48,643 bases of DNA from a virus, in IMG/VR virus record IMGVR_UViG_3300017631_000004, positions 1 through 48,643 of that record; one strand, given 5' to 3'. Each line of letters opens with the position of its first letter. Position 1 is the stretch's first letter. This document shows positions 1,897-48,643 of the stretch, piece after piece. Under the pieces are notes generated by a model, which did no database searches, was not told the DNA's origin, and saw only the letters and a list, made by a program, of their open reading frames with translations. The position numbers and the translations under genes were made by a program.

Positions 1897-4800
1897 GTGC
1901 GAGTCCTCGGTTTATTGGTTGGAGCGCTCGCCTGGTTCCCGTTGTTGGGGACCGAGTTGTTGAGCACATCGTCGAACGACGCCGCCACGATGAACCGTGC
2001 GGGATTGTCACCGGCGGCGATCGCCGTGAAGTGTGCCTTGCCGCACTGGATTTTGGCGTTCTCCGTGCCGCGCCGGGCGTCGTCGAACAACAGCGCCGTG
2101 CTCTTGGTCTCGACCACGAAGTACAGTCGCTCCTGGCCGTCGTGCTGCACGAGCACAGCCCAGTCCGGGTTGTAGTTCCCCAAGGGCGTTGGAACCAGGA
2201 ACCATCCCGGCAACTTGGCGTAGACCTTGATCGCGGCGTTCTGCTCCAGGTTCTCCGCAAAGGTCTTCTCAACGCCCGATCCGTAGACTACCTGCTCGTG
2301 CGTGGACTTCGAAGCGTCCATCATGTTGCGGAGGTATCCGGTGAGCTCCTCGTTCTCGAAGAGCTCCTGGGCGTAGTAGAACTCGTCGCCCAGCCGCTGG
2401 TACTTGATACCGTCCACGAGGGCCATCCGCTTGCACCGATTGATGGCGTCGGCGGCAAGCTCGATGAACTCCTGAGGGTTTCGGGCGAAGTCGTCCAAGC
2501 GAGTGCTCTCGGAGAGGATTCGCTGGATGCTCCTGCGCGTTAGGCGCGTGCGGTCCTGAAGATCGGTCAGGATGTCCGGCAGGTCGATGTCGGACTCGCT
2601 CAGCACCACCACGGTCGCGCCCTGGCTCTCCGTCGCCTCGACGCCAGCCTTACCGATGGCGATGTCGGCCTTCCGCCACTGGAGCCGCGTCCTGGGGATT
2701 GCCGGCGCATCCTTCAGCGCCTTCGTGCAGTCCCGAATGAGCTTCTCGTTGTCAAAATGGACGCGGTAGGTGGTCTGGTCCCTGATTCGCTTCCAGAGGT
2801 CCTTGAACTCCTCGCTGTCAAGGACGGCGCGGCGGGTCTTCACCTGCCGGCGCTCGTCGGCGTTCTTGATCTCCAACCGCCCGGAGAGCCTGCGCAGGAT
2901 CTCCGCAACCTGGTCCTTTTGCTCGGCGAACGCGGGTGGCAGCACGAGCGTCTTGTCCTTGATCGCCCGCTTGAGGGAATCCTGTACCTTGCCACGCGCA
3001 TCGATGTACCCTTGGGCCTTGAGGTGTTCCCAGACCACCTTCGACTGATCCACGCCCATCGCCCGCACGCCGCCGTCTGCGGTTGGCACCCCCACCTGGG
3101 CAAACTGGTGGTGCTCGACGACGCCGAACCGGATGCCCGTGTCCTCCTCGATCTCCTTCTGGAGATTATCGGCGAAGGCCTCGTAGCTCTCATTGGCAAT
3201 GACCGTGAGGGTGTTGACCTCGAAGCCCCGGAGCCGCTGGCCATCCTGGTTCACGCAGAGACGCAGGCCGCGCCCGATTGTCTGCCGACGTTCCCGTTCG
3301 GTGCGGATATCCCTCAGCGAGCAGATCTGGAACACGTTGGGGTTGTCCCAGCCCTCCCTCAGCGCCGAGTGCGAGAAGATGAACTTCAACGGCGTGTCGA
3401 AGCCGAGGAGCTTCTCCTTCTCCTTCATGATCAGGTTGTACGCCCGCTCCGCAGCGTCGCGCCCGGTCTGGTTCCCTTCTTCGGTGTCCACGCTGCGTCC
3501 GGACTTCTTGTCGATCGAGAAGTACCCGTCATGCACCTCCTCGGCGGCGCGATCGAGGTCCACTTCGTTGAACAACGTGTTGTAGTCGGGGTGCCGGGCC
3601 CAGCGCTTGTACTCCTCCTCGAAGATCTTGGCATACTCGCCCTTCACCGGGTTGGCGGCCGCGTCGTACTGCCTGTACTTGTCCACGGCGTCGATGAAGA
3701 ACAGACTGAGCACCTTGATGCCCTGTCGTCGGAGCCGCTTCTCCTTGTCCAGGTGCTCCTTGATCGTGCGTTTGATCATCTCGCGCTGGACGCTGGTGGC
3801 ATCCACATCGCCCCACGACTCGCCCGGCTTCAGGTACTTCTCCCCGCCCGGATACCGCAGCTCCAGAAACTCGTTCCCCGCCTGCACGCGGATCTCGCCG
3901 ACACGGCAGTTGGCGTACATCGCCCGGCGAGTTGTCTGCTCCAAGTCGTCGCCGTCCTGCACAGTCACCTCGCGACGTTCAACGCCGTGGAGCGTGTCCA
4001 TATCGAGCTCGACCTTGGCGGTGATGACGTTCCGGCGGTTCTGCACGGAGACGAGCCGAACGAACGGCCGGTTGTGTGCACTCTCCACCGTCGCCGCCGC
4101 GACCTCGATCTGCTTCACAAGCTTCCGCTCGTAGGCATCCACCGCGTCGAGGCGGTAGACCATGTGGTGCTTGTTCGCGTGTGTCGCCGAATAGCGGAGC
4201 GTGCAGAGGGGGTTCATTGCGTCGAGGGCTTGCTTGCCCGCGCCGCTCAGGCCACCATCCACACTCTGGGGCTCATCGACGATGAGGATGGGGCGTGTGG
4301 CCTTGATCAGATCGATGGGCTTCTCGCCGCCGGTCTTCTCGCTGTCCTTGTAGAGGTTGTTGATGTCCTTCTTGTTGATCGCACCGACCGTCGTCACCAT
4401 GATCTGGATGTGCGAGCTGGTGGCGAAGTTGCGCACCTGCCCGAGACGGTTCGAGTCGTACAAGAAGAATTCAAATGGAACGCCTGCGTAGAGGCCGCGG
4501 AAGTGCTCCGCCATCGCGTCGATGGAGTGATAGACACCCTCCTTGATGGCCACCGACGGGACGATGATGACGAACTTCGTGAAGCCGAACCGTTTGTTCA
4601 GCTCGAAGATCGTGCGGAGGTAGACATAGGTCTTGCCCGTGCCGGTCTCCATCTCGACGGTGAAGTCGCCGGACGCCAGTGACGACGACGGGGACAGGCC
4701 ATTTCCGAGTTGGACACTCTTGAGGTTCTCGAGTAGTTCATCGTCCAGCAGCGTCAGTCGGTTGCCTACCCCGAGATCCCCCTCGGAGAAACCCATCCGC

Positions 4801-4931
4801 ATTTGTGGGTCGGCCGCATCACGGACAACTGTGAACTCCGTTCGACAAAGCTCCTGCCCTCGGAAGAGGTTGCAGACGGACTCAATGGCTCGCAGCTGGT
4901 AATCAAGATCAGGTTCGAAGTGAAGTTTCAT
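1893..4931 (-). CDS. Type III restriction enzyme, Res subunit
   Basis: 1012 aa SF2 helicase-nuclease. Walker A GTGK is at about residues 97-100 and motif II is DEPQ at 219-222, a form typical of type III Res subunits. An SATH motif III follows, and the arginine-finger motif VI (QTIGRGLRL) is near 550. A C-terminal PD-(D/E)XK nuclease is visible as PDWAVLV then VVETKS at about 922-943. Res subunits translocate or diffuse along DNA using ATP and cut when two unmethylated sites are engaged, acting in a complex with Mod. The Mod gene lies 10 bp upstream and the GmrSD-like gene overlaps the 3' end. Length and motif set match the family, so the enzyme looks functional. Confidence 0.93.
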   Translation of the reverse strand: MKLHFEPDLDYQLRAIESVCNLFRGQELCRTEFTVVRDAADPQMRMGFSEGDLGVGNRLTLLDDELLENLKSVQLGNGLSPSSSLASGDFTVEMETGTGKTYVYLRTIFELNKRFGFTKFVIIVPSVAIKEGVYHSIDAMAEHFRGLYAGVPFEFFLYDSNRLGQVRNFATSSHIQIMVTTVGAINKKDINNLYKDSEKTGGEKPIDLIKATRPILIVDEPQSVDGGLSGAGKQALDAMNPLCTLRYSATHANKHHMVYRLDAVDAYERKLVKQIEVAAATVESAHNRPFVRLVSVQNRRNVITAKVELDMDTLHGVERREVTVQDGDDLEQTTRRAMYANCRVGEIRVQAGNEFLELRYPGGEKYLKPGESWGDVDATSVQREMIKRTIKEHLDKEKRLRRQGIKVLSLFFIDAVDKYRQYDAAANPVKGEYAKIFEEEYKRWARHPDYNTLFNEVDLDRAAEEVHDGYFSIDKKSGRSVDTEEGNQTGRDAAERAYNLIMKEKEKLLGFDTPLKFIFSHSALREGWDNPNVFQICSLRDIRTERERRQTIGRGLRLCVNQDGQRLRGFEVNTLTVIANESYEAFADNLQKEIEEDTGIRFGVVEHHQFAQVGVPTADGGVRAMGVDQSKVVWEHLKAQGYIDARGKVQDSLKRAIKDKTLVLPPAFAEQKDQVAEILRRLSGRLEIKNADERRQVKTRRAVLDSEEFKDLWKRIRDQTTYRVHFDNEKLIRDCTKALKDAPAIPRTRLQWRKADIAIGKAGVEATESQGATVVVLSESDIDLPDILTDLQDRTRLTRRSIQRILSESTRLDDFARNPQEFIELAADAINRCKRMALVDGIKYQRLGDEFYYAQELFENEELTGYLRNMMDASKSTHEQVVYGSGVEKTFAENLEQNAAIKVYAKLPGWFLVPTPLGNYNPDWAVLVQHDGQERLYFVVETKSTALLFDDARRGTENAKIQCGKAHFTAIAAGDNPARFIVAASFDDVLNNSVPNNGNQASAPTNKPRTRT

Positions 4932-4941
4932 GGGCTCGCTC

Positions 4942-6870
4942 TCAGAGGCTCCGCACGTTCTTCAGCCCGTGCTGTTCGAGAATCGCGGCGACATTGGTCT
5001 TAACGACATCGTCGGCAAATGCGTCGTCGCGGAACACGACAGCCGTTTCACCTGCTGGGTTGATTTCCTTGTGCCAGGCGGCGATGCCGAGCGCCAGCGA
5101 CTCGCCGTTGTCTCGTGTGATTCGCTTTTCGAGGCAGGTGATGAGCGAGCCTCCGCCGATCGAATGGACCCTTTTGCCCGCAATCACTTTCTCGTCCATA
5201 GGCACGCAGATGTCGAGGCCCCGCTTCAGAAGAAGCTCGTAAAGCAGGTCATGGTCGGACCGCCCCGCTTCCACATGCTCGACCGCCGAATCGAGCGTCT
5301 CGCCGATGTCGCCGCCATCAGGTGCCCATGCGCGAATGTTCGACGAGTCCAGCTTGAACACGCGTACACCACGGTCTTGGCCGCGATCGCCAAGCTCAGG
5401 AGGCGCTGACTTTGCCTCCGCAATGACGGCTCGCAAGCGAGCCATTCCCATATCAAAAATCGACTGCATGCCCTTAGTGGGACTAGGTAGCGGCTCACGC
5501 ATCTGCACCAAGATGAACCGTCGGTTACCGCCGTCCGTCTCGTTCTGCTTGAGAACCGCATGACCAGTTGGCGCACTACCTGCGAAACAATCGAGCACGA
5601 TGTCGTTCGCGTCGGCAGTAGTTCCGATCTGCAGAATCCTCTCGATTAGGCGAGTTGGCTTTACGGAATTGAGCACGTTGTCGTTGCTCTCAAACTTGAT
5701 GTACTCCAGCAGCTCCTTCTTGGCTTCCTGCGTGTGTCCCACGTCCTTGTAGAACCACATAGTCTGCGGAACGATTCCCTGTTGTACTTCGGTCAAAAAT
5801 CGCTTCTGTGCGGGCATCGCATCGCCCTTCGGACCCCACCACACACGATTGTCCTGCACTAGTTCGTCGAATGCCTCGCGTGACTGCCTCCAGTAGCGAC
5901 CCGTTCCGGATGTGAACTTCTTCCCAGTGGGTCCGGTCACTTCGTAAAGCCCTTTGCTGTAGTAATTGCGGGCGGTCAGGTCGCTGGGCTTCCACGGACC
6001 GCGAGGATCGTCGTCGATGTTCTCGTATCGAGCATCGGCTTCCGCAGACCGGGGAAGTAAAGTCGGACGCCAAGCCGAAGCATTTTTGGCGTAGACGACG
6101 ACGTAGTCGTGGTCTTCCGAGAAGTGCCTCGCGCTGTTCTTTGGTGAATAAACCTTCTGCCAGAGCACTGTGGCGACAAAGTTCTCCTCGCCGAATATCT
6201 CCGAACACAGCTTCCTGAGGTTGTCCACTTCGCAGTCATCAATCGAAATGAAGATCGCTCCATCCTGCCGCAGCATGGAGTGTGCCAGCTTAAGCCTCGG
6301 GTACATCATGTTGACCCAAGCGGTGTGATATCGCCCGGATGTGTCGCTGTTCGTCGTCATCCGACGACCATCCGATTCGCGTTGGCCGGTCAGCATCTGG
6401 TAGTTCTGAATGCTGTCCTTGAAGTCATCCGGATAGATGAACTCGTGCCCAGTGTTGTAAGGCGGATCGATATAGATCAGTCGGACCCGACCGGCGTAGG
6501 ACTTCTGAAGAATCTTCAGCACCTCCAGGTTGTCGCCTTCGATGAATAGATTCTGAGTGGTGTCCCAATCCACGCTCTCCTCAGGGCAGGGGCGCAATGT
6601 CCCCATGCTGGAGGTGAGTGCCAGTTGTCGCGCCCGGCGCTTGCCGTGCCAGTTCAGTCCGAACTTCTCCTCCGCATCGGTCACCGTTCGGTCGCCCACA
6701 AGTTGCTTCAACACATCCACGTTGACGGATGTCCCGTTCGCCCCCTCGGTGACGAGCTCAGGGAACATCGATTTCAACGCGGCGATGTTGTTGGCCACCA
6801 TGTCGGCCGAGCGGGCCAACGGGTCTTCGGCGGTGATCTTCCGGATTGAGGGGGCAGATTGCTCGGGCAT
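4942..6870 (-). CDS. Type III restriction-modification DNA methyltransferase, Mod subunit
   Basis: 642 aa beta-class adenine-N6 methyltransferase. Catalytic motif IV DPPYNTG is at 135-141 and the SAM-binding motif I follows at about 422-435. The region between them should hold the target-recognition domain, which gives the system its sequence specificity. Motif I reads FAGSAPTGHAV where the family usually has FAGSGTTGHAV, so two residues of the glycine loop are changed. The gene directly precedes res, the standard mod-res order, with a 10 bp gap. The start is ATG, 58 bp after the DUF4391 stop. It both protects host DNA and is required by Res for cleavage. Assignment is firm; whether the altered motif I lowers SAM binding is unknown. 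Confidence 0.93.
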   Translation of the reverse strand: MPEQSAPSIRKITAEDPLARSADMVANNIAALKSMFPELVTEGANGTSVNVDVLKQLVGDRTVTDAEEKFGLNWHGKRRARQLALTSSMGTLRPCPEESVDWDTTQNLFIEGDNLEVLKILQKSYAGRVRLIYIDPPYNTGHEFIYPDDFKDSIQNYQMLTGQRESDGRRMTTNSDTSGRYHTAWVNMMYPRLKLAHSMLRQDGAIFISIDDCEVDNLRKLCSEIFGEENFVATVLWQKVYSPKNSARHFSEDHDYVVVYAKNASAWRPTLLPRSAEADARYENIDDDPRGPWKPSDLTARNYYSKGLYEVTGPTGKKFTSGTGRYWRQSREAFDELVQDNRVWWGPKGDAMPAQKRFLTEVQQGIVPQTMWFYKDVGHTQEAKKELLEYIKFESNDNVLNSVKPTRLIERILQIGTTADANDIVLDCFAGSAPTGHAVLKQNETDGGNRRFILVQMREPLPSPTKGMQSIFDMGMARLRAVIAEAKSAPPELGDRGQDRGVRVFKLDSSNIRAWAPDGGDIGETLDSAVEHVEAGRSDHDLLYELLLKRGLDICVPMDEKVIAGKRVHSIGGGSLITCLEKRITRDNGESLALGIAAWHKEINPAGETAVVFRDDAFADDVVKTNVAAILEQHGLKNVRSL

Positions 6871-6928
6871 GGTTGGCTGGTCTCTTTGCAGAGGTGAAAC
6901 GGACTAGAGTGAGGAGACGTGACAGGAC

Positions 6929-7702
6929 TCAGAGCTTTCGGCGGGCTTCGTCGTGCTGGGCTTGGAGGCGTTTGAGCTGAAGGTTCAGTTCGACCTGGCG
7001 GGCCATCTGCTTCTCCTTCGCGGCGGCGGAACGGAGGGAAGCGATCGCTGCCTCCAAGGTTGTGCAGGTTTGCAGGGCCGCCTGGCGCTCGGCGGCCCGC
7101 TGCGGCGTCTCCGCGGCGGCGAACGTGCCGGTGTGCCTCGCCGCCTGGGCGGCAAGCACGGCGTCGATCCAACCCCGGTAGACCGTATAGAGCGTGGTCC
7201 GAGGTTGGCGGGCAAGCGCCAGGGCTGCGGCGAGTTCGGTGCGGACCTGTGGCGAGTGGGTGGCCAGATCGGAGTCAACGATGTCGCCATCGAGGACAAC
7301 CTTGCCGCCCTCGTTCTGGGCCCAGCGTTTGTCCGCGAGTGAGAGTTTGGGCAGCGAGGCAGCGTCGCTCGTGATGAGCAACATGTGGTAGGGAATGGCC
7401 CGGTGGATGAGCTCGATGAGCCGGGTGCATTTGGTTCCGGTCAGTTCTCCCCCCGATCGCAACGTGAGCGACAGAACGGCAACCTCGACAACCTCTCGCG
7501 TGGAATCGCGGAATGCTGCGATTCCCACGGTCGTCGGCTTGAGGGCCGCGATCCAGCGGAGTTCCTCGACACCACCTTCGATGAGGCGTTTGTCGGCTGC
7601 CGTGGGCGCGCCGTTCTCCACCAGCAGCGTCTTGGGGACGCGTTGGCCGACCATCGCCTCGCGCGGCAGTGCGAGGGCCTCGATGACCTGATCGGGCGTC
7701 AC
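6929..7702 (-). CDS. DUF4391 domain protein
   Basis: 257 aa. The N-terminal half matches my memory of DUF4391: a short lead with P(K/R)TLLVENG, then an ADKRLIEGGVEELRW segment and a LKPTTVGIAAF strand. The C-terminal 70 residues are an alanine/glutamine-rich helix with coiled-coil character, rich in K, R and E. The biochemical function is unknown. The family commonly sits between an SNF2-type helicase gene and type III mod/res genes, as here, so it is probably an accessory subunit of the defence complex. The GTG start overlaps the helicase stop (GTGA), indicating translational coupling. Confidence 0.75.
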   Translation of the reverse strand: MTPDQVIEALALPREAMVGQRVPKTLLVENGAPTAADKRLIEGGVEELRWIAALKPTTVGIAAFRDSTREVVEVAVLSLTLRSGGELTGTKCTRLIELIHRAIPYHMLLITSDAASLPKLSLADKRWAQNEGGKVVLDGDIVDSDLATHSPQVRTELAAALALARQPRTTLYTVYRGWIDAVLAAQAARHTGTFAAAETPQRAAERQAALQTCTTLEAAIASLRSAAAKEKQMARQVELNLQLKRLQAQHDEARRKL

Positions 7703-10700
7703 GGGGTAGGACCTCCCCCGGAATCAGACGCGGTCGTGCCGGGCAACACGGCGAGGTACGCGAGCACCTCGAAGTTGCCGGTGCCGGAGAACTCGCCCCC
7801 CCGCCCGCCAGAACCCAAGCCCCCGCGACCAACCTGCGTGCCGCCCGGAGTGAAGAGGCTGGCAATCGCCCGTTCCTGGCCCTTGCCGATGACCGAGGCG
7901 ACGCCGGCTGCCAGGAGGCGCTGAGGTTCCTTCATCTCGCGGCCGTGCTTCGTGTTCTTGTCGAAACGGGCGCAAGCCGCGGCGTCGGGGAGGTCCTTGC
8001 CGACACAGAGGCGTTTGAGGCGGTCGAGGATTCGTTTCGCCTGCGTGTACGACAGGACAACAGCACCATCGTCCCCGACATGGACCAGGTAGTGCGGCGC
8101 GAGGGGATAGCCCGGTTCGGGACTGACGTTCGCGCCCGTTCCCTCGGCGCGGAGACAGAAGATGATGCCGGGCTCGATGTCGGCATCGGCGGCTGTTGTG
8201 GCGGCGAATGCACCGAGCGGTTGGCGTTCGAGCACGCCTTCGTGTTTGCGTGCGTACTCGGCGAGGTCGATGCGGAAGTCCGTGAGCGTGAGGTCGGCGA
8301 TGGAGACGCCGGTGGAGAGGTCCTCGATGTCGATGACCGCATCCTGGAGCTTGAGCAACTGTGAACGGCGGTACTCCAGGTCATTCATCGGGTTGCCGGA
8401 CTGCGCTTCGATCAGGTTCTCTTCGCCACTCGCTGAAACATCGAGCAGGACCATCTTGCCGCTGACGCGCTGTTCGAGGTTGATGTACTCCTCGAGTTCC
8501 ATATTCGGCCAGAAGTTGACGAGCTGGATCTGCTGGTTGGGCGAGCCGATCCGGTCGATGCGCCCGAATCGCTGGATGATGCGGACGGGGTTCCAGTGGA
8601 TGTCGTAGTTGATGAGCCAGTCGCAATCCTGAAGGTTCTGACCCTCGGAAATGCAGTCGGTGCCGATGAGCAGGTCGATCGTGCCCTCCTGCGCGAACTC
8701 CTCTGGCCGCTCCTTTGCCCGAGGCGCAAAGGCCGTGAGAATCGAGCCGAAGTCCTTCCGGAGGCTGCCGATCGTCGTCTGGTTGCGGCCGCTGCCCGTG
8801 ACGACGGCCGACTCGACACCGAGCGTGCGCTTCGCCCATGGGGCGAGGTGCTGGTAGAGGTACTCGGCGGTGTCGGCGAAGGCCGTGAAAATGAGCACCT
8901 TGCGATTGCCGGGGTTTACTGGGCGCTCGCACTTCTCCTGAATGACCCGGCGCAGTTCCGCGAGCTTGGCATCACGCTCGGGCACGACCTGGCTCGCGGT
9001 GGAGACGAGCATCGACAGACGGTTGCGGTCTTCGATGAGGTCCTGCCGCCATCGTACGAGGTCCACGTCGGAGAGCAGTACCTTGACCTTTCGACCGACG
9101 AGCAGACCATCGAACGCCGGGTCGTCGATGTCCACATCCTCGATGTTGATCTCTTCGACTTCGTCGCCCTTGGCGTCGATGCGAGCCAACGTTGCCTCGA
9201 CATCGCGGAGCTGTCGGCTCACGGTGAGGGCGAAGGACTGCACCGAGCTTTCCAGTCGCTTCAGCACGTTCACGCGGAGCAGGTGGATGAGGCTTTCCTC
9301 GCGGTCCACCTGACGCCAGAAGCCCTTGCCGCCGGACACTTCGGTGCTGTACTTCTTGTCGTAGGCTTCCTGCTTGTGCGTCAGCACATAGCGCAGCGGG
9401 GCGTAGGACGCGAGATTGAGACGACGGATCTCCTGATTCAACTCTCGGATCGAACGGAACTCGCCGGTGAGGTCGATGTCGGCTTTGACGTTGATCGGCT
9501 TGCGCCGCTCGGGGAACTTGCCTGTCTCGGCCGTGCCGTAGTACTTCTCGATGTGCTTGCGCGACCGGGCGATGGTGAGCAAGTCGAGCAGCTTGAAGTA
9601 GTCGAACCCGAGCATGTCCACGAGGCGACCGGGCGTGCGTTCGGAGGCATCGAGGTCCAGCCAGCGGTTGAACTGCTTCTGAGCGTGGCGGGTAGTCGAG
9701 TCGATGCTGGCGATGCCCTGGTCGGCGAGGGCGGTGTCGTCACCCTCGGTGGCGAAGGCGATCTGGTTGCGGAGATCAGCAAGACGGTTGTTCACCGGCG
9801 TGGCCGAGAGCATGAGCACCCGAGTGCGCACGCCCTGCTTGATGATCTGCTTCATCAGGCAGTCGTACCGCGTCTGCCCTCCCTGCCGAGGGCTCTTCTT
9901 GTTGCGGAAGTTGTGCGACTCGTCGATGACCACGAGGTCGTAGTTGCCCCAGTTGATGTGCGCGAGGTCAATGTCGCCGGACAACCCGCCGTCGCGGGAG
10001 AGATCGGTGTGGTTCAGCACGTCGTAGTTGAAACGGTCGGCCGCGAGGACGTTCCGGCGGTCGTTGGTGGCGTACAGCGTCCAGTTGTCACGGAGGCGCT
10101 TCGGGCACAGCACGAGCACGCGGTCGTTGCGGAGCTCGTGATACTTGATGATTGCCAACGCCTCGAACGTCTTTCCCAGTCCGACGCTGTCGGCGATGAT
10201 GCACCCGCCGAATCGGTTGAGCTTGTCGATCGCGCCGACGACCCCGTCTCGCTGGAACTTGAACAGCTTCTTCCAGACCACGGTGTTGCGGATGCCCGTA
10301 GCGGCGTTGACAACGCGGTCCTCGTCGAGGGCATCGCCGCGCAGCCCAAGCAGGTGATGGAGCATCAGCGCGTAGACAGACGCTGGATCACGATGGTCGC
10401 TGATGGAGGCGAGCAGCGAGAGCAGGTGCTGCTTGGTGGCTTCGTTTCCACGAAGTGAGTTCCATTGTGCGTCGAGCCAGCCACCGATCGTGCCCGCCTC
10501 GGCGGCGTTCTCGGAGGCCTGAATGAGGCTCAACGGATTGCCCGGCGCTATGCCAAGACCGCTGGTGCTGAAGGCGAACGCGCCGAGGATCGCCTGAACC
10601 GCGTTGTTGTCCTGCCCACGGACGACGGCTGCGCCCTGCGGAATGCCCGCGGACGCTTCACGCACCTCGGCACGGTCCCGAACCCAGGCGGCGAACTCTC

Positions 10701-10950
10701 GTGCTAGCCACGGAGCAAGCAGTTGGTTGCGTGCTTCGCGGTCGCCATCGTCCCCGAGCGGGCTCCCGAGGTGATCCGCAGTCGGGATCAGGATGCGTGC
10801 GCGTGCCACGGCTGCGAACTGCTGCATCAGCTCCCGAAAGGCGAAGAGGGACACGGTGGGCGTCACGAGGTCCAATTGGGACCCGGCACCGAGATGTCCA
10901 CGCAAAGCGTCAAGCACACGATCATCGCCGGCGTTGCGGATGACTTTCAT
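7699..10950 (-). CDS. PLD-like/SNF2-family helicase of the defence operon
   Basis: 1083 aa. Residues 1 to about 180 resemble the phospholipase D-like domain found in front of many defence helicases (a FSTSGLG segment followed by a SLIQASEN strand), but I see no HKD catalytic motif. The SNF2 core follows: GLGKT Walker A near 256, VIDESHNF motif II near 340, a SATPVNNR motif III, and the helicase C-terminal lobe with GTDCISEGQNL and QRFGRIDRIG near 800. Such enzymes are ATP-driven dsDNA translocases. It overlaps the HTH gene upstream and the DUF4391 gene downstream by four bases each. It probably acts as a sensor or translocase beside the type III system; a fully independent system is the alternative. 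Confidence 0.85.
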   Translation of the reverse strand: MKVIRNAGDDRVLDALRGHLGAGSQLDLVTPTVSLFAFRELMQQFAAVARARILIPTADHLGSPLGDDGDREARNQLLAPWLAREFAAWVRDRAEVREASAGIPQGAAVVRGQDNNAVQAILGAFAFSTSGLGIAPGNPLSLIQASENAAEAGTIGGWLDAQWNSLRGNEATKQHLLSLLASISDHRDPASVYALMLHHLLGLRGDALDEDRVVNAATGIRNTVVWKKLFKFQRDGVVGAIDKLNRFGGCIIADSVGLGKTFEALAIIKYHELRNDRVLVLCPKRLRDNWTLYATNDRRNVLAADRFNYDVLNHTDLSRDGGLSGDIDLAHINWGNYDLVVIDESHNFRNKKSPRQGGQTRYDCLMKQIIKQGVRTRVLMLSATPVNNRLADLRNQIAFATEGDDTALADQGIASIDSTTRHAQKQFNRWLDLDASERTPGRLVDMLGFDYFKLLDLLTIARSRKHIEKYYGTAETGKFPERRKPINVKADIDLTGEFRSIRELNQEIRRLNLASYAPLRYVLTHKQEAYDKKYSTEVSGGKGFWRQVDREESLIHLLRVNVLKRLESSVQSFALTVSRQLRDVEATLARIDAKGDEVEEINIEDVDIDDPAFDGLLVGRKVKVLLSDVDLVRWRQDLIEDRNRLSMLVSTASQVVPERDAKLAELRRVIQEKCERPVNPGNRKVLIFTAFADTAEYLYQHLAPWAKRTLGVESAVVTGSGRNQTTIGSLRKDFGSILTAFAPRAKERPEEFAQEGTIDLLIGTDCISEGQNLQDCDWLINYDIHWNPVRIIQRFGRIDRIGSPNQQIQLVNFWPNMELEEYINLEQRVSGKMVLLDVSASGEENLIEAQSGNPMNDLEYRRSQLLKLQDAVIDIEDLSTGVSIADLTLTDFRIDLAEYARKHEGVLERQPLGAFAATTAADADIEPGIIFCLRAEGTGANVSPEPGYPLAPHYLVHVGDDGAVVLSYTQAKRILDRLKRLCVGKDLPDAAACARFDKNTKHGREMKEPQRLLAAGVASVIGKGQERAIASLFTPGGTQVGRGGLGSGGRGGEFSGTGNFEVLAYLAVLPGTTASDSGGGPTP

Positions 10951-41139: not shown

Positions 41140-43134
41140 GTGGCCGATACGCGGGGCATCCGAGCCGGGCGAGCCTTCATTGAGCTGGGCGTCAGCGACA
41201 AGCTGTCGGCTGGACTCAAGGCGGCCCAGAAGAGGCTCGAAGCCTTCGGCGCGGGGCTGCGGTCCATCGGCACGAAGATGGCGGGCATCGGCGTCGCCGC
41301 GATCACGGCGCTGCTCGGCACAGCGAAGGTGTTCAGCGACTCGGGCGATGCGCTCGACAAGATGAGCGCCCGCACGGGCGTGAGCGTTGAGGCCCTGAGC
41401 GAGCTCGGCTACGCGGCGGACCTCTCGGGCACGGACATGGAGACGCTGGAGAACGGCCTCCGCGTTATGCAGAAGACGCTGACGGAGGCGTCGCAAGGTT
41501 CTAAAGGGGCGAATGAAGCCCTCGGTCGGCTCGGTCTGACGGTGCAGGACCTCGCAAAGCTCTCCCCCGACGAGCAGTTCAAGCTGCTGGCCGACCGGAT
41601 CTCTCAGATCCAAGACCCGGCGCTCCGGGCCGCGATGGCGATGGAGCTCTTCGGCAAGGCGGGAACCAAGCTCCTGCCGCTCATGGCCGACGGGGCAGCA
41701 GGCATCAACGAGATGCAGGAACAGGCCCGCAAACTCGGGCTGACGGTGAGCACGGAGACCGCCCGCGATGCCGCCGAACTCAACGATGCCCTCGGCACGC
41801 TGTGGAAGGTCCTCAAGCAGGGCGTCTTCACCATCGGCGGGGCGCTCGCACCGACGATCAAGGACCTGACCGAGCGGATCACTCGCATCGTCGTGAGCGC
41901 CACAGCGTGGGTGAAGGCGAACAAAGAGACGGTGGTCTGGGCGCTCAAGGTCGCGGCCGCCGTGGCGGTCGCGGGGATCGCGATTGTCGGCCTCGGCTAC
42001 ATCATCTCTGGCATCGGCGCGGCGCTGGGCATCGTGGCCGCAGTCATCGGCGGGATCGGTACGGCGTTCAGCCTGATCGGGGCCGCGATCGGTGCTGTGC
42101 TCACGCCCGTCGGTCTGACGATTGCCGCAATCGTGGCGCTGGGCGGCACACTGCTGGTCGTCACCGGCGCGGGTGGCGAGGCGCTGTCGTGGCTCGCGGA
42201 GAAGTTCACCGAGCTGCGTGACTGGGTCGGCAAGGTGGTCGGCGGCATCTCCGACGCCCTCGCCGCCGGCGACATCGCGCTGGCCGCCGAGATCCTGTGG
42301 CTCTCGCTCAAGGTCATCTGGCAGCAGGGCGTCGCGGCGCTGAACAAGGCTTGGCTCGGCGCGAAGGAGTTTTTCGTCTCGACCGCGTACTCGATGTGGT
42401 ACGGGGCGCTGGCTGCTGCTGAGATCGTCTTCCACTCCCTCGAGGTCGCGTGGATCGAGACGACCGCCTTCCTGTCAAAGACCTGGACCAACTTCGCCAC
42501 TGGCTTCCAGATGATCTGGGAGGAAGCTTCGTCGTGGGTCGCCAAGCGAATGCTGGAGATTCAGGGGCTGTTCGATGACGGGCTCGATGTCGAAGCCGCG
42601 AAGAAGGCGGTCGATCAGCAGCTCGAATCCCGGCTCGTCGAACTGGAGAACGCTGCCCAGCAGTCGGTGGCTGCACGCGACAAGGAACGCGAGGCCCAGC
42701 GCCGGGACGCCGCCGCGTTGCATGAGGCGACGCTCGCGGGCATCGGCCAGGACTTCGAGAACGCGCAGGAAGCCTTGCGCAAGGACACGGCCGCAGGACT
42801 CGCCGAATCGCAGGCCGCGTTGGACGCCGCCAAGCAGAAGCTCGCGGCTGCGATCGAGGAGGCCCGCAAGAAGCGAGAGGCCGCCGACGCCGAGAAGGGA
42901 CCAGGTCGCCCGCAGCGGGATCTGATGGCCGACTTCGAGGACCGGCTGTCGGGACTCGGCGCTGCCATCGGCAAGGGCATCAGCGTTACGGGCACGTTCA
43001 GTTCCGCGGCCGTCTCAGGCCTCGGCACCGGTGGCGATGCCGCCGAACGCACAGCCACCGCGACGGAGGCGACGGCCAAGAACACCAAGCGTCTGCTGGA
43101 TGCCAGCGTGGACAACGGAATGCGGTTCGCCTGA
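41140..43134 (+). CDS. Tail tape measure protein
   Basis: 664 aa from GTG 41140. It begins with the TP901-type lead (AGRAFIELGVSDKLSAGLKA), has a helical region, several hydrophobic segments at about 265-345 (KVAAAVAVAGIAIVGLGYII and following) and a long coiled coil near 480-600 rich in A, E, K and Q. The tape measure sets tail length and enters the host membrane on DNA ejection. At 664 aa it predicts a rather short tail, roughly 100 nm by the usual 1.5 angstrom per residue rule. It follows the gp10-like gene by six bases. Confidence 0.9.
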   Translation: MADTRGIRAGRAFIELGVSDKLSAGLKAAQKRLEAFGAGLRSIGTKMAGIGVAAITALLGTAKVFSDSGDALDKMSARTGVSVEALSELGYAADLSGTDMETLENGLRVMQKTLTEASQGSKGANEALGRLGLTVQDLAKLSPDEQFKLLADRISQIQDPALRAAMAMELFGKAGTKLLPLMADGAAGINEMQEQARKLGLTVSTETARDAAELNDALGTLWKVLKQGVFTIGGALAPTIKDLTERITRIVVSATAWVKANKETVVWALKVAAAVAVAGIAIVGLGYIISGIGAALGIVAAVIGGIGTAFSLIGAAIGAVLTPVGLTIAAIVALGGTLLVVTGAGGEALSWLAEKFTELRDWVGKVVGGISDALAAGDIALAAEILWLSLKVIWQQGVAALNKAWLGAKEFFVSTAYSMWYGALAAAEIVFHSLEVAWIETTAFLSKTWTNFATGFQMIWEEASSWVAKRMLEIQGLFDDGLDVEAAKKAVDQQLESRLVELENAAQQSVAARDKEREAQRRDAAALHEATLAGIGQDFENAQEALRKDTAAGLAESQAALDAAKQKLAAAIEEARKKREAADAEKGPGRPQRDLMADFEDRLSGLGAAIGKGISVTGTFSSAAVSGLGTGGDAAERTATATEATAKNTKRLLDASVDNGMRFA

Positions 43135-43155: not shown

Positions 43156-43974
43156 GTGCCGGTTGAGGTCTTTGAGAAGTTCGAGAGCCGCCGCTCCACC
43201 AAGGCGAACCAAGTCTCGCAGTCCTCTGCGGAGCTCGGGTACATCGTGCGCGGCACGCCCGACGACCTCGTGGCCCGCAACGCGGCACAGACCAATTCTC
43301 CGGCAACCTACGACGGGCTGGCTCGTCAGAACGTGCAGATCGAGCCGCTCGGCCCGCAGCTGTGGGACGTGACCGTCCGTTACGGCTCCAACGACAGCGG
43401 CGGAACCCCCACGCCCAGCGAGGCTTCATTCAACTTTGAGACCGGCGGCGGCACGCAGCACATCACCCAGAGCAAGGACACGGTGCAGGCACGGGCCGCG
43501 TCCGGATCGACCGCGCCGGACTTTGGCGGCGCGATCGGCGTGACCGCCGACGGTGTCGAGGGCGTGGACATCACGGTGCCGGTGTACCAGTTCTCCGAGA
43601 CGCACTACTTCAGCGATGCGCAGGTGACTGGGTCGTACAAGGGCGCGATCTTCAGCTGCACGGGCAAGACCAATGCTGGCGGGTTCAAGGGCTTCGCACC
43701 CGGTGAAGTGCTCTTCCTGGGCGCGACCGGCTCGAAGCGTGGCGATGGTCCCGACGACGACTGGGAGATCACGTTCCGGTTCGCGGCCAGCCCCAACCAG
43801 ACCGGCCTCTCCGTCGGCACCATCACCGGCATCAGCAAGAAGGGGTGGGAGTACCTGTGGGTCCGCTACGCCGACGCGGAGGACACCGGGTCCGGCGCGA
43901 TCATCAAGAAGCCCATCGCCGCCTACGTCGAGCGTGTGTACGACGACGCCAACTTCGGAGCACTGGGGATCTGA
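43156..43974 (+). CDS. Distal tail-region protein
   Basis: 272 aa from GTG 43156 with a very strong AAAGGAGGT site. Strand-rich and soluble (ELGYIVRGTPDDLVARNAA, then LWDVTVRYGSNDSGG, and a C-terminal IIKKPIAAYVERVYDD). No family I can name with certainty. Position straight after the tape measure gene suggests a distal tail or baseplate hub protein. There are no catalytic motifs. Confidence 0.65.
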   Translation: MPVEVFEKFESRRSTKANQVSQSSAELGYIVRGTPDDLVARNAAQTNSPATYDGLARQNVQIEPLGPQLWDVTVRYGSNDSGGTPTPSEASFNFETGGGTQHITQSKDTVQARAASGSTAPDFGGAIGVTADGVEGVDITVPVYQFSETHYFSDAQVTGSYKGAIFSCTGKTNAGGFKGFAPGEVLFLGATGSKRGDGPDDDWEITFRFAASPNQTGLSVGTITGISKKGWEYLWVRYADAEDTGSGAIIKKPIAAYVERVYDDANFGALGI

Positions 43975-43986
43975 GTCCCTTCAACC

Positions 43987-45021
43987 ATGCCTGACGACCT
44001 CCGCAAAGTCCGATCCGGTGATCCACTCCGCCTTCCCGCGGGCGCGTACAACGCGTTCGTCGATGCGGCTGTGGACTTGCGCCGGCGGCAAGGTCGCGGC
44101 GAAGCCGTCGCCGGCCCGCTCATGGAATCGGCGCAGCGCGGCATCGTGCTTGTGCGCAACGACTCCGGCGAGGAGATCGAGCCGTACCACGCGCTGGCGA
44201 TCACCGGCGTGCTCGTCGAGCCCGGCGAGGACGACCAGGAGCGGACATTTCAGAGCCGCACGCCGCTGACAGGGGACATCGCCACGGAGGAAACGGCAGG
44301 CCCAGCGTTTGTCGTCGCACTCCAGCCAATCAAGCCCAACAAGCTGGGGCGCTGCGTGCTCACGGGCGTCACGGTGGCGCGGGTGTTCATCACCAACGAG
44401 ACCGACACGACCTGCGAGCTCGCGGCCGACGAGACGGTCCTGGCCAGCACGCCCATGGGCGGCATCCCGATCCTCTGGAAAGAAGAGGGCACCGGCGAGA
44501 AGTGGGCCGTGCTCGAGCTCGGCCGCCCGTCGCCCGGGCGCGTGACGGCGATTCTCGGCGCGGCCCAGGCGATCCCCACCGAGCGCAACCGCTGGCGCTA
44601 TCCGTGGGTGGAAGCCCAGATCGACGGCAACCCCGGCAGCGAGACCTACCTCCGGTATGTGCCCATCGAAGGTGGTCTGTCGTCGCAGCTCGCAAGCGGC
44701 GGTGAAGACCCCACGCGGCTGGCGCTCAACCGATTCGAGGCCCACCACATGAATGACTCCGAGCCCGGCTCCGGGTTCGGCGGCTTGCTCGGGCTGGGGC
44801 CGGTGTGCGAGTTGCCCGGCGTGCTTCCCAAGTGCCCGCCCGCGCGGTCGCTCAAACCCAAGCTCGTGCCCATCCCCGAGGGGGTGTGCGTGCAGCTGAC
44901 CTGCGAGCGCAACAGCAAGGGCAAGCCGGTGTGGGTCTTCGAGGCCATGAGCCTCATCGAGATCGCCGACCCCGCCGACGAGGATCGCAAGTTCAACCTC
45001 TACATCGGAGGTGCTGAATGA
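43987..45021 (+). CDS. Tail-tip or fibre-associated protein, unknown family
   Basis: 344 aa. It starts MPDDLRKVRSGDPLRLPAGA, a pattern I associate with tail-associated proteins of related prophages, and is strand-rich with cysteine residues late in the chain (GPVCELPGVLPKCPPARSL, VCVQLTC). No enzyme motif. The stop overlaps the methyltransferase ATG as ATGA. The role as baseplate or tail-tip protein is inferred from position. Confidence 0.6.
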   Translation: MPDDLRKVRSGDPLRLPAGAYNAFVDAAVDLRRRQGRGEAVAGPLMESAQRGIVLVRNDSGEEIEPYHALAITGVLVEPGEDDQERTFQSRTPLTGDIATEETAGPAFVVALQPIKPNKLGRCVLTGVTVARVFITNETDTTCELAADETVLASTPMGGIPILWKEEGTGEKWAVLELGRPSPGRVTAILGAAQAIPTERNRWRYPWVEAQIDGNPGSETYLRYVPIEGGLSSQLASGGEDPTRLALNRFEAHHMNDSEPGSGFGGLLGLGPVCELPGVLPKCPPARSLKPKLVPIPEGVCVQLTCERNSKGKPVWVFEAMSLIEIADPADEDRKFNLYIGGAE

Positions 45022-45611
45022 CCACAGCTCCGACCCCGACCGTACTCGATGCACGCCGCGAACAGGAGCGGGCCAAGTACGTGGCGCTGGCCGCCAAGCC
45101 CGGCTCGACGTACGGCTCGACCAACCACGGCAAGCTTGCCGTCCCGATCATCCACAAATTCAAGCCGAGGTTTGTCGTGGACTTCGGATGCGGCCGCAAC
45201 GACCTCGTGCGTGATCTGCGCCGGCTGGGGATCGACGGCCTGGGTGTGGACTTCGCGTTCCCGGATGCCGACCTCGTGCGTCCCATGCACAAGACCGCGC
45301 TGCACGCGGGCTTGGCGGACGTCGTCACGAGTTTCGATGCGCTCGAGCACCTGCTGCCTGAGGATGTGGACGCAGTGCTCGCAGAAATGCGCCGTGTGGC
45401 CAAGCCGCGCGGCCACTTTGTGTTCTCGATCTGCACCCGTCCCAGCAAGACCACCGTCGCCGGCGAAGGGCTGCACCCGACGGTGCGCCCGCTGGACTGG
45501 TGGCTCGACCGCATCGGCCGTGTCGCCACCGTGACCAACCCGCGGGCGGATCGGCGGTTCATCGTCGGGCGATTCAAGGGCGGAAGTGATGGGGGGTGCT
45601 GCGGTGCGTGA
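45018..45611 (+). CDS. SAM-dependent methyltransferase, class I
   Basis: 197 aa. The SAM-binding motif is VVDFGCGRNDLV near 53-64, followed by the acidic loop GLGVDFAFPD and the SFDALEHLLPEDVDAVLAEM segment typical of small-molecule or glycan methyltransferases. It lacks DPPY and a DNA target-recognition domain, so it is not a DNA methylase. GGAGG precedes the ATG. It is placed with the two glycosyltransferase-like genes, suggesting it methylates a sugar or tail component. Cellular target unknown. Confidence 0.8.
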   Translation: MTTAPTPTVLDARREQERAKYVALAAKPGSTYGSTNHGKLAVPIIHKFKPRFVVDFGCGRNDLVRDLRRLGIDGLGVDFAFPDADLVRPMHKTALHAGLADVVTSFDALEHLLPEDVDAVLAEMRRVAKPRGHFVFSICTRPSKTTVAGEGLHPTVRPLDWWLDRIGRVATVTNPRADRRFIVGRFKGGSDGGCCGA

Positions 45612-46500
45612 GAACCAGTCTGACATCGCGGCGCTCCAGGCCGGTCTGAAGGCGCGCAAGCCGTCGCGGGATGGCCTGCGCCTCTACACCGCCGACTTCG
45701 ACTCCGTGTCGCTCGGCGGGTTCTACCGCGGGCGTTCGGCGTTCCTGATCCTCTCGGGCCCGTCGCTCACGCAGCTCGATCTCTCGGCGCTCAACAAGCG
45801 CGGCATCGTCACGATGGCCGTGAACAACGCATGGGCGGTGCATCGTCCGACGCTGTGGACCTGCGTCGACGATCCCGGCCGCTTCATCGATACCGGCTGG
45901 AAGGACCCGGGCATTCTGAAGTTCGTGCCCACATGCATGTGGGACAAGCGGCTCCGCATCCAGGGCGCTGATGGCGTGATGCGCAACAGCGCGTTCAGAG
46001 TTCGGCAGATGCCCGGAGTCATGTTCTTCCGCCGTGCGGATCACTTCGACCATGAGCGGTTCCTGACCGGAGACAGCGTCCCGTGGGGCAACGACGCCAA
46101 GAACCCAGACTCTTTGGGCATCACCGGCAAGCGCTCGGTCATGCTCGTGGCCCTGCGCCTGTTGCACTACCTCGGCTTCAGCACGGTGTACCTGCTGGGC
46201 TGCGACTTCAAGATGGCCGAGGACCGCAAGTACGCCTTCACCGAGAACCGGGCGGCCAACGCGATCCGGCACAACAACGTGCTGTATGACTCGCTGGCCC
46301 GGCGCTTCGAGGCCCTCAAGCCGCACTTCGAGAAGCACCGCTTCCGCGTGGTGAACTGCTCTCCAGGCAGCGAGCTGCAGGTCTTCGAGCGCATGGAGTT
46401 CGCCGACGCTGTCGCGGCCGCGTCCGCCGAGTGCGGCAAGCCAGTGAACACGCAGGGCTGGTACGAGCCCAACCCGAAAACCCAGGAGGCCGCACGATGA
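45586..46500 (+). CDS. DUF115-like glycosyltransferase-family protein
   Basis: 304 aa; start codon uncertain between ATG 45586, ATG 45589 and GTG 45604. The FLILSGPSLTQLDLSAL and GIVTMAVNNAWAV segments resemble DUF115 (Rossmann-like, related to glycosyltransferases that modify surface proteins such as flagellins). A LHYLGFSTVYLLGCDFKM segment also fits that family. It overlaps the methyltransferase gene by 26 bases and the tail protein gene by four. Together with the GT32 gene it may attach or build glycans on phage or host surface structures. Confidence 0.7.
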   Translation: MMGGAAVRENQSDIAALQAGLKARKPSRDGLRLYTADFDSVSLGGFYRGRSAFLILSGPSLTQLDLSALNKRGIVTMAVNNAWAVHRPTLWTCVDDPGRFIDTGWKDPGILKFVPTCMWDKRLRIQGADGVMRNSAFRVRQMPGVMFFRRADHFDHERFLTGDSVPWGNDAKNPDSLGITGKRSVMLVALRLLHYLGFSTVYLLGCDFKMAEDRKYAFTENRAANAIRHNNVLYDSLARRFEALKPHFEKHRFRVVNCSPGSELQVFERMEFADAVAAASAECGKPVNTQGWYEPNPKTQEAAR

Positions 46501-48023
46501 GCGACGGCCCCACCCGCTACTACCTCTATATCCCGGTCTGGGCCACGGGCCGCGCCCCGCAAGGCGGCGGCTCGAGCAACTACTCGACGCCGTCGGAGTC
46601 GCCCGATTCGTCGTACAGCACGTACTCGACGCCCACCAGCACGCCGAGCATGCCGCCGAGTTACTCGACGACGGGCGATGTGATCTACACGACCGGTCCG
46701 GGTGGCACGCCGACGTTGACGTTCTACACCACCGATGCTTTCACCAGCAACACTCCGGGCACCACGCAGACGCCATCGAGCAGCGGGCCGATGTCATCGA
46801 GCGGTTCGGGAAGCACGCCGACGAGCGACACCCCGAGTTCCATGTCTTCGAGCTCCTCGGGCTCGAGCATGAGCAGCTCCGGCGGCGGCAGTTCGTCGGG
46901 AATGAGCTCATCGGGCGCTTCGTCCGGCATGAGTTCCGGGGCGTCCAGCGGCATGTCGTCGGGGGCGAGTTCCGGTATGTCCTCGGGCGGATCATCGGGT
47001 GCGTCCTCCGGAGGATCGTCCGGAGGGGGCAGTTCAGGGGGCGGCTCGTCGGGCGGGGGCGGGTCCAGTGGCGGCGGCAGTGGCCCGGGCGGCTCGGGTC
47101 CCGGAGGCTCCGGCCCCGGCGGTTCTGGGCCGGGAGGGTCGGGCCCTGGGGGAAGCGGGCCGGGTGGTTCCGGCCCCGGCGGCTCGGGACCCGGTTCAAA
47201 CTGTGTGCTGGCCGGGACGCCGGTTCGGCTGGCCTCGGGCCAGACCGTGCCGATCGAGCATCTGAAACCGGGTGACCGCGTCGCGGCGCTCGATGTGGCG
47301 GGCCTAGATCGCGATGTGCCGTGGCGGGCGCAGTATCAGTGGCTGCGTCAGCGAGCCGAAGCCGTGCTCACGCCCGTCACCGGCTGCGTGGCCAGTGTCA
47401 AGATGGGCACACACGACGGGTTCGTCACCATCAACGGTCGCCTGCGGCTCACTCCCGAGCACCCGGTGCTCCTGCGCCGCGGCGATGAGGTCGGGTTCGT
47501 CTCGGCGGAGTTTGTACTTGTTGGCGACTACCTCGTGCGGCACGACCTCAGCGAGGAACGCGTCGAGACGATCAGCCGCGCCGGCGAGCGCGTCACCACG
47601 GTCGCAGTGCATGTGCCCGGTCTGAACGTCTTCCTGGCCGACGGCGTGTGGGTCCACAACGACATGCCCGCGACGCAGGCAACGGGATCGGGATCGGCTT
47701 CTGGTTCGGGGTCCGGTTCTGGCTCGGGATCAGGCTCCTCCAGCGGCAGCGGGTCGGGTTCCGGCAGCGGCAAGTCCAGCGGCTCGTCCATGTCGAGTTC
47801 TGGAAGCTCGTCAGGATCTGGCAGTTCGTCTGGTTCCTCGAGCGGCAGCGGGAGCGAAAGTGGCTCGGGCCCGCCCGGTTCAGGCTCGGGCTCCGGCAGC
47901 GCCCAGCAGTCCGTGGCGCTCGGTGAGGGTGCATCGTCGTTCATCGAGGGCGGCATGGAGGGCGTGCCTCCCGCGAAGTGGCAGCAGAGCGGTTTGAGCA
48001 GCGAAGAAGAGGTGAAGGCATGA
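46497..48023 (+). CDS. Ser/Gly-rich tail protein with internal Hint (intein-like) domain
   Basis: 508 aa from ATG 46497, preceded by GGAGG at seven bases. Residues 1-55 are Tyr/Gly-rich and tail-like, followed by Ser/Thr/Pro and then SSGMSSGAS and seven GPGGS repeats up to 235. Residues 236-388 are a Hint domain: Cys236 in the CVLAGTPV block, a PIEHLKPGDRVAALD segment, TPEH with His322, and a C-terminal NVFLADGVWVHN with His387-Asn388. The next residue is Asp389, not the Cys, Ser or Thr required for splicing. The rest (389-508) is again a Ser/Gly-rich repeat. Such bacterial intein-like domains self-cleave or form adducts. It lies among glycosyltransferase genes and may be a processed tail fibre. 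Confidence 0.85.
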   Translation: MSDGPTRYYLYIPVWATGRAPQGGGSSNYSTPSESPDSSYSTYSTPTSTPSMPPSYSTTGDVIYTTGPGGTPTLTFYTTDAFTSNTPGTTQTPSSSGPMSSSGSGSTPTSDTPSSMSSSSSGSSMSSSGGGSSSGMSSSGASSGMSSGASSGMSSGASSGMSSGGSSGASSGGSSGGGSSGGGSSGGGGSSGGGSGPGGSGPGGSGPGGSGPGGSGPGGSGPGGSGPGGSGPGSNCVLAGTPVRLASGQTVPIEHLKPGDRVAALDVAGLDRDVPWRAQYQWLRQRAEAVLTPVTGCVASVKMGTHDGFVTINGRLRLTPEHPVLLRRGDEVGFVSAEFVLVGDYLVRHDLSEERVETISRAGERVTTVAVHVPGLNVFLADGVWVHNDMPATQATGSGSASGSGSGSGSGSGSSSGSGSGSGSGKSSGSSMSSSGSSSGSGSSSGSSSGSGSESGSGPPGSGSGSGSAQQSVALGEGASSFIEGGMEGVPPAKWQQSGLSSEEEVKA

Positions 48024-48643
48024 TCCCGAAGGTCATCTACACGGCCGACTTGTCCGAGTCCCCTGACCGTCAGCGGCTTGCTGCGTGGAAGCACGCATGG
48101 CAGACGCTGCACCCCGAGTGGGACGTCGTCACATTCACGCTGGAGAACAGGCCGCCGATCCTGAACCACGATCAGTGGCAGCAGACGCTCGACCTCAGCG
48201 AGCCTGCGGCGTCGGCGGCGCGGCTGAACCTGCTGCGATACGAGGTGCTCGCCCGCGAGGGCGGCGTGTTCGTCGATCCCGATCGTCTGCCGCTGCGCTC
48301 GCTCGATGAACTCGTCGCCGGCGTCGGCGCATTCTGCTCGACGATCGCCAGCCACGGTGCGAGCCGTCCGCACATGCTCTCGCCGTCGGTGCTCGGTGCG
48401 ACGCGGAATCATCCGATGCTCTGGCACGCGATCCGCGACCTGCCGCACTCGGTGCTGGTCTATCGCGGTGTGTGGGACCAGAGCGGGCCGGGGTTCCTCA
48501 CACGCGTGGTCCGCGACCACGGGCACTTCCGCGACGTGGTGCCGTTCCATTGGGCGCTCTTCGAGCAGGGCGAAGAGGCCGCCAAGGCTCACGGCGGGGC
48601 GTTCGGGTTCGTGACCGGCAAGACGGCGGAGGCTGCGGCTTGA
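48020..48643 (+). CDS. GT32-type glycosyltransferase
   Basis: 207 aa from ATG 48020, which overlaps the preceding stop. The family start IPKVIYTADLSESPDRQRL is followed by LNLLRYEVLAREGGVFVDPD, with the DxD metal motif near 86-88, and LRSLDELVAG. GT32 enzymes (Och1-like) transfer sugars from nucleotide sugars in a metal-dependent way. Ends with a TGA at the window edge. It is the last of the tail-tailoring genes and may glycosylate the Ser-rich protein encoded just upstream, although the substrate is not known. The stretch after the motif is shorter than in typical GT32 proteins. Confidence 0.8.
   Translation: MIPKVIYTADLSESPDRQRLAAWKHAWQTLHPEWDVVTFTLENRPPILNHDQWQQTLDLSEPAASAARLNLLRYEVLAREGGVFVDPDRLPLRSLDELVAGVGAFCSTIASHGASRPHMLSPSVLGATRNHPMLWHAIRDLPHSVLVYRGVWDQSGPGFLTRVVRDHGHFRDVVPFHWALFEQGEEAAKAHGGAFGFVTGKTAEAAA

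Follow-up and report, generated by a model that had tools for sequence, protein, structure and literature searches.

The 48,643-base IMG/VR virus record analyzed here in its entirety (the window) carries a gene that probably encodes a stalk- or fiber-like virion appendage of a Phycisphaerae prophage, equipped with an active Hint domain that resembles type A BIL domains. We base this reading on conserved residues, on a structural model closest to 2LWY and 6Y75, on a +1 pattern of the BIL-A kind, on purifying selection across the Hint domain and its flanks, on synteny, on fusion to a decoration- or head-fiber-like domain, and on a lysine motif. The new observation is this motif, which is conserved in the C-flank beside an N-flank that almost always lacks lysine.

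The window is a siphovirus-like prophage of Phycisphaerae (Planctomycetota). An initial annotation had assigned the gene to a phage tail operon, and the record indeed contains terminase, portal, and tape-measure genes, with the Hint gene located after the last of these (Table 1). In most loci with enough flanking sequence the order is the same: tape measure, the gene corresponding to that at 43156, the gene corresponding to that at 43987, methyltransferase, glycosyltransferase, and Hint. The second glycosyltransferase, 3′ of the Hint gene, is found in the window's subgroup; the Ser/Thr-rich Hint protein is thus encoded between two glycosyltransferase-like genes and may be glycosylated. In several other subgroups the phage genes seem to end with the Hint gene, ahead of defense or host genes. 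In many loci (noted in L011, L024, L103, L110, L115, L125, and L131) the last phage gene is followed at once by an excisionase-like HTH gene (MTIDDLAAYLQVSKSSLYKLAQ...), by a large defense-type gene (DrmD-like, HsdM-like, and others), or by both, which suggests a site for defense cargo at the right end of these prophages. The window itself has a defense cluster on the minus strand at 1-10950 (PADLOC), comprising a DUF262-like protein, type III res and mod genes, and an HKD+SNF2 helicase.

Table 1. Positions in the window of the Hint gene, its parts, and its neighbors
Feature	Position	Strand	Remarks
Tail tape measure protein	41140..43134	+	phrog_8462, E 1e-50
Putative virion surface protein (43987 gene)	43987..45021	+	First ~190 aa fused to the Hint region in four relatives
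Methyltransferase gene	45018..45611	+	PF13489, E 3.5e-11; same operon
Glycosyltransferase-like gene (PHROG sialyltransferase), directly upstream	45586..46500	+	phrog_4603, E 9e-12; synteny
Hint-containing putative appendage protein	46497..48023	+	508 aa, ATG start; open reading frame and translation; >100 relatives
Conserved N-terminal peptide TRYYLYIPVWATGR	46512..46553	+	In full-length nonfused relatives and Hint-less alleles
(GPGGS)x7 repeat in N-flank	47082..47186	+	Residues 196-230
Hint domain	47202..47660	+	Residues 236-388, 153 aa; Cys236, T319-x-x-H322, H387-N388
Ser/Gly-rich C-flank	47661..48020	+	Starts at Asp389; residues 389-508
Lysine motif K426-SSGSSM	47772..47792	+	Conserved; candidate acyl acceptor or docking site
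C-terminal motif EGVPPAKWQQSG	47958..47993	+	Common to Hint-less alleles; EGVPPADWQ in fused form L118
Glycosyltransferase (DXD)	48020..48643	+	PF04488, 29.1 bits (cut-off 23); ATGA overlap with Hint stop codon; synteny

The translation bears out the Hint domain and the residue numbering first proposed for it, and composition, Pfam, and the structural model agree that a real Hint domain is flanked by Ser/Gly and GPGGS sequence. The N-flank (residues 1-235) is 32% Ser and 28% Gly, is also rich in Thr and Pro, and contains neither Lys nor Cys. Its seven GPGGS units are perfect as protein and differ synonymously as DNA. The sequence GPGSN directly precedes Cys236, His322 sits in LTPEHP, and the 120-residue C-flank is 38% Ser and 27% Gly. 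A Pfam scan of the whole protein gave no domain other than Hint and no folded domain in the flanks; a whole-protein NCBIfam search returned nothing useful, and a PHROGs search with the Hint protein gave only a weak match.

The isolated domain matches Pfam Hint_2 at 29.6 bits (E 1.1e-6; cut-off 28.4 bits), and the whole protein lies below this cut-off at 25.3 bits. An AlphaFold2 model of the domain, made with 34 relatives, has a pLDDT of 88.6 and a pTM of 0.83. By Foldseek, its best PDB match is 2LWY (E 1.2e-8), a BIL domain from C. thermocellum that is also the best sequence match of the family profile in the PDB (hmmsearch, E 3e-10). VIA-align instead ranks BIL2 of Tetrahymena first (6Y75, Z 19.4 over 139 residues, rmsd 2.0), a lead shared within 1 Z by several inteins. 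There are 83 PDB chains at Z of at least 8 to the model, and among the matches listed all 50 entries have the Hint fold. The predicted structure thus places the domain in the HINT superfamily, with its horseshoe fold.

Retention of Cys1, TxxH, and HN in more than 100 relatives shows that the catalytic residues are conserved beyond what chance would give. Across 110 distinct proteins we find the starting Cys, TxxH followed by Pro, and the terminal His-Asn, and the same set is seen in relatives ranging from 97% to about 46% identity; Cys, TxxH, and HN are present as well in two phage Hint proteins at 25%-27% identity. Every residue that self-cleavage calls for is present and invariant in the family, which supports the self-cleavage that the initial annotation expected. 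The residue before Cys1 is Asn here and in 109 of the 110. At +1, Asp occupies 106 of the 110 positions (Asp389 here), with Ala in two and Thr in two. A strictly invariant +1 Asp, as suggested by the first 26 relatives, was ruled out by the Ala and Thr of remoter ones. The two Thr cases (L132 and L133, THNT) are the only members with a potential splicing nucleophile, and L133 has a very short C-flank. By predicted fold and motifs, the domain is best described as BIL-A-like and probably autoprocessing rather than as a class 1 intein.

The close relatives are almost confined to Phycisphaerales/Phycisphaeraceae genomes, and 11 of 198 sampled Phycisphaerae genomes have a match. Several genomes of 3.5-4 Mb carry related copies five or six times over, in some cases at distances of only 30-60 kb; these multicopy genomes are CP054186.1 (L038, L040, L046, L053, and L074), ACE_PLA8, HBSAPP03, and ACE_PLA19. 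So many copies in one genome represent unusually heavy polylysogeny. A helicase-Hint chimera (L119) and the truncated L048, L087, and L104 were considered broken or misassembled copies and kept out of the evidence. The open frame of L119 that ends at 8515 combines a phage helicase gene with the last third of the Hint domain plus the C-flank, by natural recombination or by misassembly.

In two subgroups of close relatives, dN/dS is 0.13 and 0.11 for the N-flank, 0.09 and 0.06 for the Hint domain, and 0.05 and 0.18 for the C-flank, rough values since the low-complexity flanks align imperfectly. These ratios indicate that both flanks are under purifying selection and do not drift freely, and they argue against a reading of the flanks as hypervariable. 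The proposal that self-processing yields variable fibers is therefore not supported, although the flanks do differ in length among relatives.

Scanning for the N-terminal peptide YYLYIPVWAT brought up five phages without a Hint domain (L137, L145, L154, L166, and L179). Their alleles keep the same N-terminus, the GPGGS repeats, the C-terminal EGVPPAxWQ, and the same gene order. In the phylogeny of the 43156 protein they branch between lineages that carry the domain, with a support of only 86/77 for the key branch. Five such alleles at the same locus mark the Hint domain as an add-on module; that these phages manage without it counts against an autoprocessing appendage.

Four other relatives (L118, L122, L123, and L134) carry a fusion: their Hint region follows the first ~190 residues of the 43987 protein, and this virion-type domain takes the place of the N-terminal peptide TRYYLYIPVWATGR, which is likely a docking element. 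Residues ~47-181 of the 43987 protein resemble capsid decoration proteins, the phi29 head-fiber base, and a C-terminal fragment of phi29 gp12 (best Z 10.6 over 107 residues), on a model of moderate confidence (mean pLDDT 69). The Foldseek E of about 1e-3 is modest, and the BFVD matches are fiber-like proteins; profiles of the 43987 family found nothing convincing in PHROGs and no PDB match by sequence. Synteny and this fusion to a virion-type domain indirectly support the view of the Hint protein as a virion appendage.

BIL domains cleave at their ends, type A doing so without a +1 nucleophile (Asp in most members of our family fits this pattern) (PMC7765530, PMC7664689). Self-cleavage of the Hint protein is likely, judging from its residues, and by analogy with BIL domains and BIL2 it could proceed in four steps. 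The precursor would be assembled via its N-terminal peptide, a role that the fused decoration- or head-fiber-like domain would take over in some phages. The N-flank would then be shifted onto Cys236 as a thioester, with the assistance of T319xxH322, and cyclization of Asn388, assisted by His387, would free the C-flank. Finally, the thioester would react with water, with the newly released amino terminus, or with the Lys426 side chain of the C-flank. The outcome would be a processed, possibly cross-linked Ser/Gly stalk with the Hint domain no longer in its middle. Location in the virion, activity, order of steps, and fate of the thioester are what we infer from these comparisons.

The lysine itself belongs to a motif, K-S-S-G-S-S-(S)-[MFL] or a close variant (K[S/A/H/G]SGSS-type), which occurs in the C-flank of 118 of 121 relatives, 21-54 residues past the HN. 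The exceptions are two truncated copies (L087 and L107) and L133, whose shortened C-flank has EKSSG. The motif is present in 20 of 20 deep representatives, compared with 0.2 expected in shuffled flanks, although these are related lineages, so that multiplying the probabilities would not yield a P-value. A cause at the DNA level, such as a recombination site, is unlikely: the motif is written in 68 DNA versions, with switches between Ser codon families. The N-flank lacks Lys in 98 of 110 proteins. This conserved placement of the motif makes cross-linking of the flanks, which the initial annotation had raised in general terms, a concrete and testable idea.

The most specific form of that idea, a special case of the preferred autoprocessing appendage, is that Lys426 of the same or a neighboring chain specifically attacks the Cys236 thioester, so that the stalk becomes branched or joined by an isopeptide. 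The precedent is BIL2 with its C-flanking ubiquitin-like domain, the reported product of which is an isopeptide between the end of the N-flank and a Lys of that domain (PMC8616854), and 6Y75 is the structure that heads the VIA-align ranking, close to several inteins. The motif is missing from all five Hint-less alleles; however, the motif region is replaced there along with the Hint domain, so both may be missing simply through linkage. A docking or export signal is another possible role for the motif. We consider Lys426-directed conjugation possible, as a tentative reading made by analogy.

Further evidence on this point comes from unrelated phage tail proteins in which the Hint domain is C-terminal. 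Their short C-flanks contain Lys in 16 of 16 cases, against an expectation of 6.0 based on other C-termini of these loci, and Arg in only three (4.8 expected); eight of the 16 had been seen before the lysine idea arose. Among 11 distinct held-out tails, seen after it, all 11 have Lys (6.3 expected; about 0.01 over seven clusters), eight of them also being among the 16. The comparison is small and partly selected post hoc, and related tails are not independent, so the enrichment is suggestive only. A search started from the distant tail Hint domain L136 matched only itself.

Splicing of the intein kind, in which the Hint domain would be excised and its flanks joined by a peptide bond via the freed amino terminus, as partly occurs for BIL domains, strikes us as unlikely. 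All N- and C-side residues are present, two members have a +1 Thr, and BIL domains are able to ligate without a +1 nucleophile, as cited in PMC7664689. Against this stand the Asp at +1 in nearly all members, in line with the early expectation that class 1 splicing is improbable here, and the low-complexity flanks, in which there is no interrupted domain to restore. Nor did the N-terminal motif scan find the clean empty-site allele expected of a mobile intein: the Hint-less alleles have other sequence in its place. In L137:9576, L154:9200, L166:4679, and similar alleles, a small segment, SDSFTxTLTLGSEGTI...TIGTSSDSFTGTFTT, occupies the Hint site.

It is equally doubtful that the Hint fold serves as a structural or binding module that is no longer reactive. 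Domain position 143, an invariant Asn in the aligned relatives, corresponds to the block F site, which in inteins is usually His. With this His lost and an unusual Asn at -1, reaction rates could be low. However, Cys1, the Thr and His of TxxH, and the terminal His-Asn are invariant in intact members as far as about 46% identity, which is not expected of a purely structural role. Least probable of all is that the protein is not part of the virion, being either a released effector, as in polymorphic toxins whose C-terminal toxin is set free by a Hint domain, or a lysogen surface protein modified by the adjoining glycosyltransferases: the PT-HINT model matches 23 of 34 members, and Ser/Thr-rich flanks between glycosyltransferase genes could be glycosylated, but no toxin-like or other domain follows Hint in the Ser/Gly C-flank, and both the tail synteny and the fusion to a virion-type domain speak against it.

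Compared with known systems, the autoprocessing appendage comes closest to the type A BIL domains exemplified by 2LWY, with which it shares the Hint fold, Cys1, TxxH, and terminal HN, the lack of a +1 nucleophile in most members, and low-complexity flanks. It differs in the nearly fixed +1 Asp and -1 Asn, in its phage late operon, in the conserved lysine motif, and in the purifying selection on its flanks (dN/dS 0.05-0.18); type A BIL domains lie in variable, nonconserved flanks, and those here vary in length. Like BIL2 of Tetrahymena BUBL1 (6Y75, 6TMM), the domain lies between two flanks with a Lys available in the C-flank, but there are no ubiquitin-like domains and no RGG before Cys1, the Lys is in a disordered flank, and isopeptide chemistry would apply only by analogy. 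The A-type BIL domain of Neisseria MafB (PMC4287609) likewise sits at a constant/variable junction and occurs in some alleles but not in others; the signal peptide and C-terminal toxin region of MafB have no counterpart here. Class 1 inteins have the same fold and N-side catalytic residues but interrupt a conserved host domain, whereas here the +1 Cys/Ser/Thr is absent in most members, there is no homing endonuclease, and the flanks are Ser/Gly sequence. Separately, we noted a Vibrio phage helicase with apparently two inteins inserted at separate sites in one gene (OQ622096.1; L031:3152-5653).

The view that no phage system of this kind had been described was overstated. C-terminal Hint or intein domains are annotated in tail or fiber proteins of phage NCTB ("putative phage tail protein, contains intein domain" and "large intein domain protein" in the deposits), with similar genes in Alcaligenes phage Afa-NA1 and Erwinia phages pEa_SNUABM_5/7, and the literature already describes a class of BIL domains located in variable proteins (PMC7765530). 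Those tail proteins also have HN and a C-flank Lys, and collagen-like repeats precede their Hint domain as GPGGS repeats do here; they differ in their identity of about 30%, a C-flank of a few residues, unrelated N-terminal parts, and the lack of KSSGSS. A literature search, with subscription journals largely outside its reach, found no paper giving a function to phage-tail Hint domains.

Hint domains in phage tails are thus already known, and the predicted BIL-A-like domain in a constrained, probable Ser/Gly appendage with a candidate acceptor Lys represents a variant of them. The more than 100 relatives, together with the Hint-less alleles and fused forms, make a role in virion maturation testable with a few point mutants. 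It is a speculative thought that phages use conjugation without ATP or enzymes on their appendages, a Hint-activated thioester of the Ser/Gly stalk being transferred to the Lys of K-SSGSS-[MFL], and that other phage Hint proteins with Lys tails may do likewise. If this were true, the stalk would be covalently branched or cross-linked, within a chain or to its neighbor, and the lysine motif, if it is the acceptor, would represent a protein-ligation tag that occurs naturally in bacterial viruses, comparable to the conjugation by Tetrahymena BIL2 and possibly useful as a tool.
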